DNA from: Gammaproteobacteria bacterium
GTDB lineage: Bacteria > Pseudomonadota > Gammaproteobacteria > VBWC01
Assembly: GCA_006218035.1 (NCBI GenBank)
Contig: VBWC01000005.1
Location: 14,226 to 78,225, forward strand
DNA: 64,000 nucleotides
Reading direction: 5' to 3'
Each line of letters starts with the position of its first letter. Position 1 is the first letter of the stretch. The notes under the pieces were generated by a model. The model searched no databases and was not told where the DNA came from. It was given only the letters and a program-made list of their open reading frames with translations. Of this stretch, positions 24,324 to 51,481 are shown in pieces. Position numbers and translations under genes: made by a program.

Positions 24324-24594
24324 ACGGCTAATCCTCTGTGGTGCCTGTGAAAAGGGGGCGGATTATAGCCCAACCGGACCGCGATGAAAACGAACGCCCT
24401 TGGCTGTCAGGGGGGAATTCCCGGGCACCGTTTGTATACGGGTGCTGTGCTTTCAAATCCCGGCCACCCACCCTACAATCGAACGGCGCCGTCGTCTGCC
24501 GATGACGGTGTGCGACGTCAATAACAAGAATATCCGGGTCCGTGCCGCTCGCGGCGCTTCACATGTCGATGGTTCGAATATGGGAGGGGATTCA

Positions 24595-26601
24595 ATGAGT
24601 GCTGCTGGTCTGCTGCCGTTGCTGTTCGGTATTTTTGGGTTGTACGCCGCCTTCCGTGTCTTCCGCCTGGTGCTGGCTTATCCTGCGGGTGAGGGTAAGG
24701 TCGCGAAGATTGCCGCGGCGATCCACCTCGGTGCGATGGTGTTCATGAAGCGCGAATACCAGGTGCTGGGTATTTTCGTTGCGGTCGTTTTCGTGCTCCT
24801 GGTGATATTCCTGGGATGGGGTACCGGCTTCGCGTTCATGATCGGTGCGCTGGCCTCGGCATCCGCCGGTTATATCGGTATGTACACCGCAACGCAGGCC
24901 AATTCGCGCACCACGGTTGCCGCCCACAACGAAGGCGCAGCCACGGCGCTGACGGTGGCGTTCTTCGGTGGTTCGATCATGGGGATCACGGTGGCGTCGA
25001 TGGGCCTGCTCGGGCTCGGCTTCCTGTATTTGCTGTTCGGCGGAGATCCGCAAACCGCCCACGTCATTCACGGCTTTGGCATGGGCGCGTCCAGCGTGGC
25101 GCTGTTTTCACGGGTCGGCGGCGGAATATTCACCAAGAGCGCCGACGTCGGCGCCGATCTGGTCGGCAAGATCGAGGCCGGTATCCCGGAGGACGACCCC
25201 CGTAATCCCGGCGTTATCGCCGATAACGTCGGCGATAACGTCGGCGATGTCGCCGGCATGGGCTCCGATATATTTGAATCCTATTGCGGCGCGATCATTG
25301 CGACGATCGCCATCGCGACGACGCTGCACCCCGACATGTTGCAGCAGCTGGGGGATCAGGCGCACCTGATGTTTCTGCCGCTCGCGCTGGCGTCCGTCGG
25401 CCTGCTGTGTTCGCTGGGCGGGATTGCGCTGGTGCGGAGGTTTTCGGCGAAATCGCCGGAGGTGGCGCTGCGTATCGGCACGATGGGCGCGTCGGTGATC
25501 TTCATCATTGCGGCCCTGTTGTTGATTGCTATCGTCGATGTGACCTTCAAGGTCTGGATAGCCGTGCTGTCCGGCGCGGTGGGCGGCATCATCATCGGGC
25601 TCGTCACCGAGTATTACACCGGCGGTGCGCCGGTGCGGCGTATCGCCCGCGCCGGTGAAACCGGTCCGGCCACCGTCATGATCAGCGGCCTCGCCATCGG
25701 TATGCAGTCCGTGGCGATTCCGATGCTGACGATCTGCGCGATCATTTTCGTGGCCAGCGAAATGGTCGGCCTATACGGCGTCGGCATCGCCGCAGTCGGC
25801 ATGCTGGCGACCGTCGGCATTACGATGGCGATCGATGCCTATGGTCCGGTGGCGGATAATGCCGGCGGTATCGCCGAGATGGCCGGTCTCGGTGCCGAGA
25901 CGCGCAAGATCACCGATTCGCTGGATGAACTGGGCAACACCACGGCAGCGATAGGCAAGGGCTTCGCGATCGGCGCGGCGGCACTGGCGGCGCTCGCCAT
26001 CATTGCCGCGTTTGTCGAAACGGTATCGCTGCATCATCCGGGATTCGAACTGCAACTCAATAACCCGCGCGTGCTGATTGGCATGTTCCTAGGCGGCATC
26101 TTCCCGCTCGCCGTGTCGGCGATGACGATGACCGCGGTCGGCGATGCCGCGTTCGACATGATCAAGGAGATTCGCCGGCAGTTCCACGAGATACCGGGAC
26201 TGCTCGAAGGTACCGCCGAACCGGACACCGCGCGCTGCGTCGACATCGCGACGAAGGCCGCATTGCGGCGCATGGTACCGCCGGGCGTGCTGGCGGTTAC
26301 AGCTCCGGTCGTGGTGGGGTTCATCCTGGGGCCGGAGGCGCTGGGCGGCATGTTGGGCGGCGCGTTGCTCGGCTGTGTGATGATGGCGTTGATGATGGCC
26401 AACGCCGGCGGTGCCTGGGACAACGCCAAGAAATATGTCGAGAAGGGCAATCTCGGCGGCAAGGGCTCTGACGTCCATAAGGCGGTGGTCGTTGGTGATA
26501 CCGTCGGTGATCCGTTCAAGGATACGGCGGGTCCGTCGATGAATATTTTGATCAACGTGATGGCGATCGTCAGCCTGGTGATCGCGCCGCTGCTGGCCTG
26601 A
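24595..26601 (+). CDS. hppA: HppA, membrane-bound ion-pumping pyrophosphatase
   Basis: A 668-residue protein with about 16 membrane helices. The substrate site is marked by DVGADLVGK at 184-192, followed by [15 protein letters not shown], and by [19 protein letters not shown] at 447-452 has alanine where potassium-independent enzymes carry lysine, so this is predicted to be the potassium-dependent type; whether it pumps protons or sodium cannot be told. ATG 24595 follows GGGAGGGG. It couples PPi hydrolysis to ion transport across the inner membrane and is followed by a strong terminator. Confidence 0.95.
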
Positions 26602-26786: not shown

Positions 26787-28055
26787 TTAGGTCTTTACTT
26801 CGAACTTCGCCTTGAGCTTTTTCGGTACGGCGATGTTCTTCAGCGTTACGTACTGCGGCAGGCCGTTTTTATACGGCGGGTAATCCTCGCCACGGATCAA
26901 CGGTGAAAGATAGCGGCGGCATTTCTCGGTGATGTGGAAGCCGTCTTTCGTGATGAAATCGCGCGGCATGAATTTCTCGACGTTGGCGACATCGGCCAGA
27001 TTGGCGACACCGATAGCCCAGCGGTACGGCTTGTCGGATTTGCGCACGATCGTCGGCATCACGGCGTTCCTGCCTTTCAGCGCGAGTTCCACGGCTGCCT
27101 TGCCGACCGCGTAGGCCTGATCGACATCGGTCTTCGATGCAATATGCCGTGCCGCCCGCTGCAGATAATCGGCCACCGCCCAATGGTATTTGTAGCCCAG
27201 GTGACTCTTGATGAGTTGGGCGATCACCGGTGCGGCACCGCCGAGCTGGGCGTGCCCGAAGGCATCGCGCGTACCGGCCTCGGCGAGGAATTTTCCGTCG
27301 GCGTTCTTGACCCCTTCGGACACGACTATCGCGCAGTAGCCGTATTTCTTGACCGAGCGGTCGACCCTTTCCAGCAGCTTCTTTTCATCCAGCGCGATTT
27401 CCGGGAACAGAATGACCTGCGGCGCGTCGCCGTCCTTTTCCGCGGCCAGCCCGCCCGCGGCGGCTATCCAGCCGGCATGGCGGCCCATGACTTCCAGCAC
27501 GAAAATCTTGGTCGAGGTCTTGGCCATGGACGCGACATCGAACGCCGCCTCGCGTATCGACACGGCGACATATTTGGCTACCGAGCCGAAGCCCGGGCAG
27601 TTATCGGTGATCGGCAGGTCGTTGTCGACGGTCTTGGGAATGCCGACACAGATGATCGGATAGCCGAGCTTCTCGCCGATCCGGGAAACCTTGTGCGAGG
27701 TATCCTGCGAATCGCCGCCGCCGTTGTAGAAGAAATAGCCGATATTGTGCGCCCGCATGACCTCGATCAGCCGTTCATATTCGGCCCGGTTTTCCTCGAG
27801 GCCCTTGAGCTTGTAGCGGGCGGAGCCGAACGCGCCGGCCGGGGTGTGGCGCAACGCCGCGATGGCCGCGGCGGAGTCCTTGCCGGTATCAATCAGATCC
27901 TCGGTCAGCGCGCCGATGATGCCGTTGCGGCCCGCATAGACCTTGCCGATCCTGTCCTTGTGCTTGCGGGCGGTTTCGATCACGCCACAGGCGCTGGCAT
28001 TGATGACGGCGGTCACGCCGCCGGACTGGGCGTAGAACGCGTTTTTCCTGGACAT
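26787..28055 (-). CDS. pfp: Pyrophosphate-dependent 6-phosphofructokinase
   Basis: A 422-residue PFK-A-family enzyme. GGGDS at 112-116 has aspartate where ATP enzymes have glycine, and PKTVDND at 140-146 has the lysine typical of PPi-users; D144 should be the catalytic base. It phosphorylates fructose 6-phosphate reversibly with PPi. The ATG at 28055 follows GGAAGGAG and gives the usual N-terminus MSRKNAFYAQSGG. In Methylococcus capsulatus a pfp gene is linked to hppA, and the same association is seen here, tail to tail. Confidence 0.93.
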   Translation of the reverse strand: MSRKNAFYAQSGGVTAVINASACGVIETARKHKDRIGKVYAGRNGIIGALTEDLIDTGKDSAAAIAALRHTPAGAFGSARYKLKGLEENRAEYERLIEVMRAHNIGYFFYNGGGDSQDTSHKVSRIGEKLGYPIICVGIPKTVDNDLPITDNCPGFGSVAKYVAVSIREAAFDVASMAKTSTKIFVLEVMGRHAGWIAAAGGLAAEKDGDAPQVILFPEIALDEKKLLERVDRSVKKYGYCAIVVSEGVKNADGKFLAEAGTRDAFGHAQLGGAAPVIAQLIKSHLGYKYHWAVADYLQRAARHIASKTDVDQAYAVGKAAVELALKGRNAVMPTIVRKSDKPYRWAIGVANLADVANVEKFMPRDFITKDGFHITEKCRRYLSPLIRGEDYPPYKNGLPQYVTLKNIAVPKKLKAKFEVKT

Positions 28056-28343
28056 CGTGTGTTGGCTCCTTCCCGTTTTGGCTGTTGTTGCGCTGAACCA
28101 CTCCGGCATGGCGCCGGCAGCTAGGCATTCTGCCTGTTTGTCGCGCGCCCGTCATCCGTGCCCGGGCCGCCGCTGTTGCGAGTTCGTTGACTACGTCGTC
28201 GACACAATGTAGCGTAGTCAGCGGTTGGAATGAGTATCGGCGGCGCGCGCAAGGATTTTGTGCGGAATGAGTAAGCTGCTGATCGATAGATAGAATTAAT
28301 AAGAAACAGTGTACCAATCCTGCCTGACGGAGTAACTATCGCC

Positions 28344-29555
28344 ATGAGAATTGTCATCCTTGGAGCACCCGGCTCTGGAAAAGGAACCCAGGCCAAGCTG
28401 CTGTCGGAGAAGCACAAGATTCCTCAGATATCCACCGGTGATTTGCTGCGTGCGGCCGTCGAGTCGGGCTCGCGGCTCGGCAAGATGGCCAAGGCGGCGA
28501 TGGACGCCGGCCAGCTCGTGTCGGACGAAATCGTGCTCGCAATCATACGCGAGCGGCTGGCCAAGGCGGATGCCAAGGCGGGATTTCTGCTCGACGGTTT
28601 TCCACGCAATATCGCCCAGGCGGAAGTACTCGACGCGATGGTGCAGAAGATGCGCCAGCCGATCGACGTCGCGCTGTTGATCGATGTCGACTTCGATACC
28701 TTGATCCAGCGGCTGGCGGGCCGGCGCACCTGCATGTCGTGCGGGCAGATGTACAACATCTTCACGTCACCGCCGAAGTTCGATGACAGCTGCGACAAGT
28801 GCGGCGGCGTATTGCGTCACCGCGCCGACGACAACGAGGAGACGATCAGCAATCGCCTGCGCGTCTATGAAACCCAGACGGCGCCGTTGATCAAGTATTA
28901 CGGTGATCAGAGCAAGCTGGCGACCGTGCGCGGCACGGGCGAGATCGACGATATATTCCGCAATATCGATGGCACGCTGAAAGAAACGATCGCGGACGGC
29001 AAGAACGCTGCCAAGGAAAAGGCCAAACAGGCTGCGGCCGCAGTAAGCAGAAAGCGCGACGCGGAACGCGCGGTAGCGGAGAAGAAAAAGGCCGAGGCGA
29101 AGAAAAAAGCGGACGAGAAGAAACGGGCGGAGGCCGTGAAAAAAGAGCTGGCGCGCAAGAAGTCCGAGGCCAGGAAGCTGGCGGCGTTGAAGAAGAAGGC
29201 AGCAGCGGACAAAAAGAAGGCGATGGTGAAGAAAAAGGCCGACGCGAAAAAGCAGGCAGCGGACAAAAAGAAGGCGGCTGCGTTAAAGAAAGCGCTGGCG
29301 AAGAAGAAGGCCGCGCTGAAAAAGAAGAACACGAAGAAAAAGCCGACGACAAAGCAGAAGGCCGTCCGCAGGGCGACGGCAAAAAAATCGCCGGCCAGGA
29401 AGAAAGCCGTCAAGAAGAAGCCGGCGAAGAATATGGCGGCGCGCAAGACCGTAACGAAAAAGAAGGCGGCCGGGAAACCGGCGAGGAAGAAGGCGACATC
29501 GAAAAAAAGAACGGCGGCCAATACCGCTCGCAAACGGCGTGGCGGGCGGCGCTAG
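28344..29555 (+). CDS. adk: Adenylate kinase with a 190-residue lysine/alanine-rich C-terminal tail
   Basis: Residues 1-212 are a complete long-type adenylate kinase: P-loop GAPGSGKGT (7-15), TGDLLR, DGFPRN, and a zinc-binding LID with C130, C133, C150 and C153. It balances AMP, ADP and ATP. A normal enzyme stops near 215; here the frame continues to residue 403 with a tail in which about a third of residues are lysine. The first half is AKE-rich and helical, the second contains KKKP and PARKK motifs like histone H1 or AlgP. Such tails bind nucleic acid or polyphosphate, which is inference. ATG follows CGGAG. Confidence 0.93.
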   Translation: MRIVILGAPGSGKGTQAKLLSEKHKIPQISTGDLLRAAVESGSRLGKMAKAAMDAGQLVSDEIVLAIIRERLAKADAKAGFLLDGFPRNIAQAEVLDAMVQKMRQPIDVALLIDVDFDTLIQRLAGRRTCMSCGQMYNIFTSPPKFDDSCDKCGGVLRHRADDNEETISNRLRVYETQTAPLIKYYGDQSKLATVRGTGEIDDIFRNIDGTLKETIADGKNAAKEKAKQAAAAVSRKRDAERAVAEKKKAEAKKKADEKKRAEAVKKELARKKSEARKLAALKKKAAADKKKAMVKKKADAKKQAADKKKAAALKKALAKKKAALKKKNTKKKPTTKQKAVRRATAKKSPARKKAVKKKPAKNMAARKTVTKKKAAGKPARKKATSKKRTAANTARKRRGGRR

Positions 29556-30611
<1,056 letters not shown>

Positions 30612-48218: not shown

Positions 48219-48493
48219 CCTCTGCAGTATACGGTTGCGCTGCAAGCCTGTCGGCCGGCGACCCTCGCCGGGTTGTTGGGCCGGATGATCGGGACCGGAG
48301 CACGTCGGTGGCTGGTCTGGAACGGCTCCAGGCGGGCCTTGGCTCAGGCGCGAATCTGGCGGGAAAACCCACCATACGCTATGCTGTTTCTCCATTCGGC
48401 ACGATACTGCGAGGGCCAACCGGAAGGCCTGATGCAGACCAGCTGATCTCAGTCTGCTGGCTGCCGGGACTATTTAAATATCAGGTGTTAGTC

Positions 48494-51481
48494 ATGCTGA
48501 CGAACAGACCGTGGCGCTACACAGCGATAGCGGCCGCGTTTCCGGGTTTCCTGTTACTTTCCGCGTGTACGTCCGGCGCCGGTACGGCGGCAAACGCGCC
48601 ACCGGTTTTTTCATCGAGCGCGGCGCTGGTCGTGCCAGAGAACACGACCGCGGTTATTGTCGTATCGGCCACGGACGCAGACGGCCAGGCCTTGAGCTAC
48701 AGCGTTACCGGCGGTGCCGATCAGGGCGATTTTTCCATCGACGTCGGTAGTGGCACGCTGGTTTTTGGCAACGCGCCCGATGTTGAGAATCCTGTCGACA
48801 GCGACACCGATAACGTCTATCTCGTAGAGATTACGGCGTCGGACGGCCGTGCCGCTGCCGTGCAGGCCATGGTGATCACCGTGACCAATGTCAGCGACAT
48901 CGCGCCGGTTTTCACATCCGGCACGACGATTTCCGTTGCAGAAAATATCAGCGCTGTGATGGCGGTTGGCGCTACCGACGCCGAGGGTGACAGCGTGAGC
49001 TACACTGTCAGCGGTGGCGCGGACAGCGCGAGGTTCGCTGTCAACGCCGGCAGTGGCCTGTTGAGTTTCGCTACCCCGCCGAATTTCGAGGCTCCCACCG
49101 ACAGCAACAGCGATAATGTCTATGTTGTCGTTATCACGGCGACCGACGGTATCAACACCGATGCACAGACGGTCACGGTGACCGTGACCGATGTCAGCGG
49201 CGAGGCCCCGGCATTTACATCCGCCACCGCGCGGTCGCTGGCCGAGAATATCGCGGCGGTCATGACGGTAAGGGCCGTCGACGACGACGGCGAAGCCGTG
49301 GCCTATAGCGTCACCGGCGGTACCGATCAGTCCGCATTTACCATTCATGCCACCAGCGGCGCGTTGAATTTTGTTGCCGCGCCGGATTTTGAGGCACCGG
49401 CCGACAGCGACGCCGACAACATCTATGTCGTGCAGGTGACGGCGTCGGCCGGTGGCGACGCCGTGGTGCAGACCATTGTCGTCACGATTACCGACGTCGA
49501 TGAAGTGCTGCCGGTATTTACCTCGAGTGCCACGCCGTCCGTCGTCGAGAACACCACCGCGGTCGTGACGGTCACAGCGACCGACGCCGGCGGCGATCCG
49601 GTGACTTACCTGATAACCGGTGGCGCCGACCGGGCCAGGTTCTCGATCGACGGCAGCAACGGCAAGCTGAGCTTTATCGTTGCGCCGAATTATGAGACCC
49701 CGACCGACACCGGCGCCGATAACACCTATGTCGTCATCGTCAGTGCTTCGGACGGCAACAACCTGGTACCGCAGACGATTACGGTATCCGTGACGGACGT
49801 GTTCGATCTGGGCGTCGCCGATGGCGGGATCAAGAATCTGGCCTTTATCTGGTCGGCATGGGCGGGCGCCACCCATTACAAGCTGAAGGTCAATCCGGAT
49901 GGCGCCTCGGGATACACCCAGGTAGGCAGCGACATCGTCGGTACGGCGATCAACGTGGAAATTCCGGTACATCTGACCAACTGGCCTAACGCGAGCTACG
50001 TCCTCGAGGCACACAATGGCGGCGGCCTTATCGGCACGACACCGGCGGTGACGATTGCGGGACTGATGATTTCGAGCATCGGTTACATCAAGGCCGTGGA
50101 TCCCGGGGCGAACGACGACTTTGGCTTAAGCATTGCCCTGAGCAGTGACGGCACGACGCTGGCCGTTGGCGTGCCGGGCGAGGACAGCGGCACCACCGGC
50201 ATCGCCTCGACACCGGACGAGACGGCTGTCGATGCCGGTGCCGTGTTCGTGTTCCGCAAATCGGGCACGAGCTGGGTGCAGCAGGCGTACGTCAAGGCGT
50301 CAAACGCCGGTGCGGGCGATAATTTCGGGCATAGTGTTGCGCTGGGCAGCGCTGGCAACACGCTCGCGGTTGGCGCCTATTGGGAAGACAGCGGCACGAC
50401 CGGTATCAACTCGACGCCAAACGAGGGCGGCTCGGATTCGGGTGCCGCCTACGTGTTTCGTTACGCCACCGGCGCGTGGTCGGAGCAGGCCTACATCAAG
50501 GCATCGAATGCCGGACCGAGCGACCGATTCGGCTGGAGTGTCGCGCTGAGCGGTGATGGCAATACCCTGGCGGTTGGCGCCTCTCTGGAAGACAGCGCCA
50601 CCGTGGGAGTTGGCTCGACGCCGAACGAAAGCGGGCCGGATTCCGGTGCCGCCTACGTGTTTCGTTACGCCACCGGCGCGTGGTCGGAGCAGGCCTACGT
50701 CAAGGCGTCGAATGCCGGCGCGAGCGACCGGTTCGGCTGGAGTGTCGCGCTGGGCAGCGATGGCAACACGCTGGCGGTCGGTGCCTCGCTTGAAGACAGC
50801 GCCACGGCGGGAGTTGGCTCGACGCCGAACGAAAGCGGGCCGGATTCCGGTGCCGCCTATGTGTTTCGTTACGCCACCGGCGCGTGGTCGGAGCAGGCCT
50901 ACGTCAAGGCGTCGAACACCGGTGCCGGTGACGGCTTCGGTCAAAGCGTATCCCTGAATGGTGATGGCAATACGCTGGCGGTCGGAGCCCACGGGGAAGA
51001 CGGCAGCGGCACGGGAATAAACGCGGTGAGCAACAATAATACGGCGAACGCCGGTGCGGTCTATGTGTTGCGCTACACCGGTAGTGCCTGGGCCGAGGAG
51101 GCTTACATCAAGAGTTCCAATCCAGGCGTTGGTGACCTGTTCGGCTGGAGTGTCGCGCTGAGCGGTGATGGCAACACGCTGGCGGTTGGCGCCTATCTGG
51201 AAGACAGCAGCACGGTTGGCATAGCCTCGACGCCCGATGAAAGCGCCGCTAACGCGGGTGCGGCGTATGTGTACCGATACGCGACGGGTGCATGGTCGCA
51301 GCGGGCCTATGTCAAGGCCACGATCACCGGTGCGGCGGACTGGTTTGGTTACAGCGTTTCCGTCCGCGGTGACGGCGACACGCTGGCGGCGGGGGCGCGG
51401 TTCGAGGATGGCGGCAGTACCGGCATCGACGGCGTTGTGAATGACGACGTTTCCAATGCGGGCGCGGTCTACCTGTACTGA
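48494..51481 (+). CDS. Large lipoprotein with cadherin-like and FG-GAP repeats
   Basis: A 995-residue lipoprotein with lipobox LSAC. Residues about 34-436 form four cadherin-type repeats of about 100 residues, each with a PxFTS start, VTATDADG-like calcium-binding motifs and a DNxYxVxITASDG end. About 440-525 looks like a fibronectin-type domain (FIWSAWAGATHYKLKV). From about 528 to the end are seven FG-GAP-like repeats of 68 residues (DRFGWSVALSGDGNTLAVGA), suggesting a beta-propeller. Repeats 2-4 are nearly identical in DNA, with a 204-base period, so they were duplicated recently. It is likely a surface adhesion protein that binds calcium. Confidence 0.82.
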   Translation: MLTNRPWRYTAIAAAFPGFLLLSACTSGAGTAANAPPVFSSSAALVVPENTTAVIVVSATDADGQALSYSVTGGADQGDFSIDVGSGTLVFGNAPDVENPVDSDTDNVYLVEITASDGRAAAVQAMVITVTNVSDIAPVFTSGTTISVAENISAVMAVGATDAEGDSVSYTVSGGADSARFAVNAGSGLLSFATPPNFEAPTDSNSDNVYVVVITATDGINTDAQTVTVTVTDVSGEAPAFTSATARSLAENIAAVMTVRAVDDDGEAVAYSVTGGTDQSAFTIHATSGALNFVAAPDFEAPADSDADNIYVVQVTASAGGDAVVQTIVVTITDVDEVLPVFTSSATPSVVENTTAVVTVTATDAGGDPVTYLITGGADRARFSIDGSNGKLSFIVAPNYETPTDTGADNTYVVIVSASDGNNLVPQTITVSVTDVFDLGVADGGIKNLAFIWSAWAGATHYKLKVNPDGASGYTQVGSDIVGTAINVEIPVHLTNWPNASYVLEAHNGGGLIGTTPAVTIAGLMISSIGYIKAVDPGANDDFGLSIALSSDGTTLAVGVPGEDSGTTGIASTPDETAVDAGAVFVFRKSGTSWVQQAYVKASNAGAGDNFGHSVALGSAGNTLAVGAYWEDSGTTGINSTPNEGGSDSGAAYVFRYATGAWSEQAYIKASNAGPSDRFGWSVALSGDGNTLAVGASLEDSATVGVGSTPNESGPDSGAAYVFRYATGAWSEQAYVKASNAGASDRFGWSVALGSDGNTLAVGASLEDSATAGVGSTPNESGPDSGAAYVFRYATGAWSEQAYVKASNTGAGDGFGQSVSLNGDGNTLAVGAHGEDGSGTGINAVSNNNTANAGAVYVLRYTGSAWAEEAYIKSSNPGVGDLFGWSVALSGDGNTLAVGAYLEDSSTVGIASTPDESAANAGAAYVYRYATGAWSQRAYVKATITGAADWFGYSVSVRGDGDTLAAGARFEDGGSTGIDGVVNDDVSNAGAVYLY
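50437..50910 (+). repeat. Near-identical 204-base tandem coding repeats
   Basis: A segment encoding GAAYVFRYATGAWSEQAY occurs at about 50443, 50647 and 50851 with almost unchanged bases, spaced exactly 204 bases (68 codons). The repeats lie in the FG-GAP part of the large lipoprotein and keep the frame. Confidence 0.85.

Follow-up and report, generated by a model that had tools for sequence, protein, structure and literature searches.

A lysine-rich tail on a gammaproteobacterial adenylate kinase, and relatives that keep the tail on a changed kinase domain

The adk locus and its neighbours

The window, i.e. the whole stretch of DNA analysed here, holds 64,000 nucleotides of contig VBWC01000005.1 from a gammaproteobacterial genome (GCA_006218035.1). 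It contains an adenylate kinase (Adk) gene in a single open frame (28344..29555, forward strand) that runs from ATG to TAG and encodes 403 amino acids. The gene and its surroundings are made up as follows (with the basis of each assignment in parentheses):

24400..26601, forward strand: hppA, a membrane ion-pumping pyrophosphatase (NF001961)
26787..28109, reverse strand: pfp, diphosphate--fructose-6-phosphate 1-phosphotransferase, divergent neighbour of adk (NF010675)
28110..28343, no strand: intergenic region between the divergent pfp and adk genes (sequence, frame coordinates)
28344..28979, forward strand: adenylate kinase domain, residues 1-212, with a zinc-type LID (NF001380, Pfam, alignment, AlphaFold2)
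28980..29552, forward strand: lysine-rich tail, residues 213-403 (translation, composition, AlphaFold2)
29553..29555, forward strand: TAG stop codon ending the fusion frame (sequence)
29592..30611, forward strand: hemB, porphobilinogen synthase (starts 36 bases past the adk stop)

The model matched by the hppA product, NF001961, is named 'sodium-translocating', and the cut-off of TIGR01104 (the H+-type) is passed as well. The intergenic region presumably holds the promoters of both pfp and adk, a GGAG sits upstream of the adk start, and adk and hemB are likely co-transcribed. An antisense frame rich in phenylalanine (28907..29533, reverse strand) was set aside as the mirror of the lysine codons. 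Elsewhere in the window, a forward frame of 1057 amino acids (48308..51481) shows cadherin-like repeats by eye, followed in the same frame by some 3 to 5 tandem 204-bp repeats (50280 to about 51333) with the look of the FG-GAP or propeller type; its product is probably a surface protein.

An earlier, sequence-only reading of this DNA had connected the kinase with its PPi-metabolising neighbours. Both hppA and pfp are confirmed, and as gene context the connection holds. It does not explain the tail: pfp-linked Adks that end without a tail are common among the relatives, so that the pfp link was rejected as a sufficient explanation and the role of the tail would seem to be dispensable or replaceable. 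For chemolithotrophic symbionts, passages of PMC4949241 (see also PMC4136832) propose the pfp/hppA pair as a substitute for two Calvin cycle phosphatases, saving ATP; the term 'adenylate kinase' is absent from the main texts of these two papers.

An ordinary kinase domain followed by a polycationic tail

The kinase part is complete and its LID zinc site intact, just as had been read from the sequence. Residues 1-212 score 289.9 bits against the NCBIfam equivalog NF001380 (adenylate kinase; cut-off 251) and pass the cut-offs of both Pfam ADK and Pfam ADK_lid. The P-loop reads GAPGSGKGTQ, and the four LID cysteines (C130, C133, C150 and C153) show no variation across 15 aligned sequences, the window protein included. 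All 14 flagged catalytic or P-loop positions, among them the AMP-binding and catalytic arginines, D84 and D158, match Escherichia coli (we take their roles, and the E. coli reference for the numbering, as generally accepted); positions 57 and 200 differ from E. coli, and both are variable among all rows of the alignment. AlphaFold2, given the window protein plus seven relatives, places the kinase part at block pLDDT values of 85-95 up to residue 210. A search of PDB sequences matched this part to many solved adenylate kinases, with 5g3y, 3dkv, 1zin and 1ake among the relatives; the likeness to the bacterial zinc-LID enzymes (these entries and NF001380) extends over the whole domain, the P-loop, the AMP-site arginines and the LID cysteines, although 1ake presumably is without zinc cysteines. 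Considered as a possible pseudo-adenylate kinase, the window protein has no strict catalytic residue changed. With its residues intact and no other Adk match found when the whole genome was searched, the protein is predicted to be catalytically active; being the only Adk found, it presumably performs the essential reaction 2 ADP = ATP + AMP.

The frame then runs on for 191 residues, of which 64 are lysine (41 AAG and 23 AAA codons; 33.5%), in agreement with the earlier estimate of about 190 residues and one third lysine. The rest is largely alanine (26%), with 9% arginine, 8% aspartate plus glutamate, and 2% proline, giving the tail a net charge of +66 against +1 for the kinase part. The 100-residue stretch richest in lysine, which lies in the tail, reaches 41%; the best one elsewhere in the window, over six frames and leaving out the forward-strand stretches that overlap the tail, reaches 14%. 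The first part of the tail is rich in lysine, glutamate and alanine, and from residue 309 onward aspartate and glutamate are absent. AlphaFold2 predicts a long helix over residues 201-269 and, from residue 265, mostly pLDDT below 50 (disordered). The 'PAKK-like units' read earlier are found in part: towards the end of the tail one reads SPARK, KPAK and KPARK, but the bulk of it consists of KKKA-type runs with a usual spacing of 5-7 residues. Searched against Pfam and NCBIfam (E up to 1) and against PDB sequences (E up to 0.01), the tail gave no match. Within its own genome it finds itself plus two weak matches only (E 4.1 and 9.2); as nothing else in the genome resembles it at E below 4, a general habit of this genome was rejected as an explanation.

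Untailed relatives end at about 208-225 amino acids, so the window Adk differs from them by its 191 extra residues and their charge. In composition the tail agrees with the likeness to histone H1 and AlgP that had been proposed. The C-terminal tail of the eukaryotic linker histone H1 is likewise rich in lysine and alanine and has an SPxK-like motif (here SPARK), the resemblance being one of composition; unlike H1, the window protein has no winged-helix domain, and its tail is poor in proline. AlgP (AlgR3) of Pseudomonas aeruginosa and the phasin PhaF carry a similarly long, charged, Lys/Ala-rich and disordered C-terminal tail. In contrast to theirs, the window tail has no KPAA repeat (its translation was inspected for tandem copies), and the N-terminal part is an enzyme rather than a helical or phasin domain; no phasin domain was matched among the Pfam families listed for the window protein. 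Passages of PMC9239181 give AlgP a net charge of +55 and a C-terminal domain of 195 amino acids, and say that it appears to interact with the whole nucleoid where polyphosphate kinases are absent.

Another parallel is NCBIfam PRK13808 (NF010381), a long adenylate kinase that likewise consists of an Adk followed by a basic, K/A-rich tail. Its cut-off was passed in 2 of the 120 genomes of a phylum sample, in one family, which we take to belong to the Alphaproteobacteria from the known carriers of the model. These carriers have a short LID that by eye is without zinc cysteines, unlike the window Adk, and the window protein scores 179.3 bits against the model, below the cut-off of 426. The PRK13808 type, which stands outside our trees, and the type described here are probably convergent.

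Tails across the class and changed kinase domains

In the congener (G001) the Adk is also 403 amino acids long, with 94% identity. Ka/Ks between the two genomes is 0.08 for the kinase and 0.27 for the tail, where about 31 of the 40 changes would be expected to be nonsynonymous and 20 are (p=1.3e-4); by this estimate, from one genome pair, the tail is under purifying selection. A stop directly after the kinase in related strains, which would have spoken against the fusion, is not found in this sole congener, while tailless Adks do occur in more distant relatives. The same length in the congener, the Ka/Ks of 0.27 and the presence of tails in 43 families led us to reject a misread or untranslated frame.

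The proposed search for long Adks with conserved tails gave a positive answer: among 369 genomes sampled from the class, at least 88 have a tail of 70 amino acids or more (clearly basic in 85), a lower bound because the candidates were chosen by frame length and match reach. Together with one further genome (G173) this makes 89 tailed genomes in 43 families. Lysine plus arginine amount to at least 25% in 86 of the 89 tails, the exceptions being G244 (complete, 19%) and the contig-cut tails of G350 and G205. Ten of the 89 tails run into a contig end and entered the count with their visible part; the 79 complete ones measure 89-327 amino acids and have net charges of +19 to +112 (median +60). 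Across 111 loci (80 named and 31 further), the Adk either ends within 15 residues past the fold or has at least 76 more. This gap is not absolute, since three tails of 36-47 amino acids (G344, G436 and G235, left out of the tail table) were found later. Loci L234, L249 and L253-L258 were read as well and are without a long tail. The amino-acid sequence of the tail is not conserved across the relatives and its charge is, for which reason we judge its function from charge. In the trees, tail presence needs five changes, two of them forced by well-supported branches, and the relatives grouped with Steroidobacter gossypii seem to have gained the tail separately. Weak lysine-rich matches in other proteins of three relatives (G010, G024 and G043) indicate that such tails are not peculiar to Adk.

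Two observations concern the make-up of individual tails. Part of the tail at L159 (G174) seems to be in a different frame from the tails of its neighbours (RNQWPGRRRPLKRQLQRK-type repeats) and has stayed strongly basic all the same, as though it were the charge that counts and not the sequence. Secondly, a PTVEDLEKxVMxKA-like linker was noticed in the first 110 tail residues at L120, L122, L127, L129, L155, L158, L160 and others, and is possibly a docking helix. Written as [TS][VLMI][EDQ][DAEQR]L[EQ]x[MVILKRA][VIML], the motif precedes the lysine repeats in 12 of the 89 tails (7 families) and appeared 0 times in 200 rounds of shuffled tails; its association with copy number has p=0.35, and the window protein is without it.

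Not all tailed kinases have kept their active site. Pfam ADK served to count the Adk copies of 92 genomes, 89 of these having a tail of at least 70 amino acids, and nine positions were held to be strictly catalytic: K13, R36, D84, R88, R119, R123, R156, D158 and R167. One genome (G424) was entered with two copies, its further matches being fragments at contig ends; the unchanged copies include G366, whose start is missing at a contig edge, and G260, which has G14R only. Strict positions are changed in 15 of 52 tailed copies that have another Adk in the genome and in none of 37 single copies (Fisher p=1.3e-4, a test that, like all the Fisher tests here, ignores relatedness). Among 86 untailed controls none is changed at these positions, and a single one (L109, G10N) deviates in the wider residue set. 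The stricter counts point in the same direction as the main count, with weaker p-values:

Non-conservative changes only: 12/52 versus 0/37, p=0.001
Complete tails only: 11/45 versus 0/34, p=0.002
Complete tails and non-conservative changes: 9/45 versus 0/34, p=0.009
Without the three changed-copy families contained in the query alignment, where the change was noticed first: 9/45 versus 0/37, p=0.003
Genomes at least 90% complete: 10/45 versus 0/32, p=0.004
Counted by family, the only step toward descent: 10/27 versus 0/16, p=0.007
Counted by family, non-conservative changes: 7/27 versus 0/16, p=0.035

The 15 changed copies are spread over 10 families. On the tree (G366 left out), 7 changes are required to account for the 14 rows with the changed state; an independent-pairs test finds only 2 pairs on well-supported branches, which go in the same copy-number direction in 0.5 on average and in the opposite one never. 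Examples, from genomes with two or three Adks, are G045 (K13R, R36N and D84V), G171 (R36S in place of R36N), G208 (K13D and D84H), and family f43, where three of four species have R88E or R88G. In G011, G206 and G454 the strict changes are only R-to-K or D-to-E, and in each the P-loop is changed too. The most diverged tailed Adks are L119 (G011) and L243 (G208), both on very long branches, with an altered P-loop and with pfp kept; their tails, of 327 and 213 amino acids, are complete. From the altered residues we take the changed tailed copies to be catalytically inactive, and the untailed copies that were read in the 15 genomes have their strict positions intact.

Most of the changed copies have a complete basic tail. 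In 11 of them, from 7 families, frames are open and tails complete, with 161-327 amino acids and net charges of +42 to +98; the median length is 213 amino acids, against 187 for the 68 complete tails on unchanged kinases. The other four tails are cut by contig ends; their visible parts are clearly basic in G206 (net +72), moderately so in G441 (+13 in 70 amino acids) and hardly so in G350 (+5) and G205 (+2). For the changed kinase domains of G045 and G171, Ka/Ks is 0.105 at a Ks of 1.24, slightly more than in any of eight pairs whose strict positions are unchanged (0.016-0.103), so this changed domain is still under purifying selection. The two share K13R, G14N and D84V, which means that their split probably came later than the loss. 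Other changed pairs are near or past saturation (G043/G174 at Ks 3.1; G355/G446 saturated). That tailed copies can lose catalytic residues and keep the tail points to a separate, non-catalytic function, beyond the positioning of ATP/AMP chemistry. Judged from these residues, the tailed Adk probably has a non-catalytic role able to outlive the enzyme, and in the window organism one protein would do both.

What the tail may do

We give somewhat better than an even chance to a bifunctional Adk, i.e. an active kinase with its tail on nucleic acid and an extra, non-catalytic role. The folded part would be an ordinary zinc-LID Adk that carries out its normal reaction, and the polycationic tail is predicted to tether the protein to a nucleic-acid polyanion, most likely the nucleoid, through charge interactions of the same kind as those of the AlgP, PhaF and histone H1 tails. 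The clade's tailed protein would in addition bind, organise or regulate, a role that selection may keep once a second, untailed Adk takes over catalysis. Here we infer both the binding partner of the tail and the nature of the second role: a tailed protein that is retained after its active site has changed probably does something else, and for a disordered tail with a charge of about +40 to +100 the simplest such task would be to hold the protein on a polyanion. Tethering to the nucleoid or to RNA is the most likely reading of the tail, and our proposal for the window, with its single-copy and unchanged Adk, is an active enzyme tethered to nucleic acid. A bolder version, possible at chances well short of even, sees an enzyme turning into an H1-like nucleoid protein: the window Adk would be at once the only kinase and chromatin-binding, and as many as ten related families would have lost the kinase and kept the protein as a DNA-bound factor, perhaps adenylate-sensing, beside pfp.

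Polycationic character by itself does not tell RNA from DNA. The tail might then bind RNA or ribosomes rather than the nucleoid, and put Adk where AMP arises, in aminoacyl-tRNA synthesis or RNA turnover; a eukaryotic adenylate kinase, Fap7, acts in ribosome biogenesis according to PMC4019466. No RNA-specific feature stood out in the tail, and we regard this alternative as rather unlikely. The tail DNA contains imperfect repeats of 18 and 36 bp; these, together with the wide range in length of the complete tails, would suit a (nearly) neutral by-product of repeat slippage in lysine and alanine codons, with the changed copies, several of which are on long branches, as decaying duplicates. Against this stand the Ka/Ks of the tail and, for the changed copies, the Ka/Ks of the G045/G171 pair, the 11 open frames with complete basic tails and the presence of pfp beside all 15, which make such an origin improbable.

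The presence of pfp raises another question, namely whether the protein is mainly a local partner of pfp and hppA; it might bind DNA and regulate the divergent pfp promoter, or serve the PPi enzymes as a scaffold. Within the stretch read, pfp was found at 15 of 15 changed tailed copies versus 50 of 69 unchanged ones that are not at a contig edge (p=0.018; 5 more unchanged copies are at a contig edge), a comparison that is uncorrected for relatedness and that draws on stretches of unequal length. As the untailed Adks show the same linkage, we think such a partnership hardly probable. Very unlikely is a tail that targets polyphosphate and couples Adk to polyP:AMP chemistry, as the sequence-only reading had allowed: AlgP is located on polyP granules in passages of PMC9239181, and among 16 tailed genomes, including both alphaproteobacterial PRK13808 carriers, 13 have PPK1 and 12 have PPK2, but neither enzyme was found in the congener or in the window genome, whose completeness is rated at 100%; this speaks against polyphosphate as the general target and in favour of DNA or RNA.

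The earlier statement that such a fusion has no described function agrees with the literature search, in which no title or abstract start among the matches listed (mostly open-access full-text literature) describes a tailed bacterial Adk. Both halves are already known, and a model for a long Adk exists in PRK13808, named only 'adenylate kinase'; in the literature covered, neither the breadth of the tailed Adk in the class nor its change to tailed pseudo-kinases seems to have been described. Adenylate kinase sets the energy charge of the cell, and the usual picture is that of a small, freely diffusing enzyme. With a tail of such charge on the clade's only Adk, the reaction would be put on a polyanion, probably the chromosome. 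The relatives in which the kinase is seemingly dead and the tail is kept would be a natural separation of the two functions; as the functions are apart there, the second role could be tested by deletion with little effect on adenylate metabolism.
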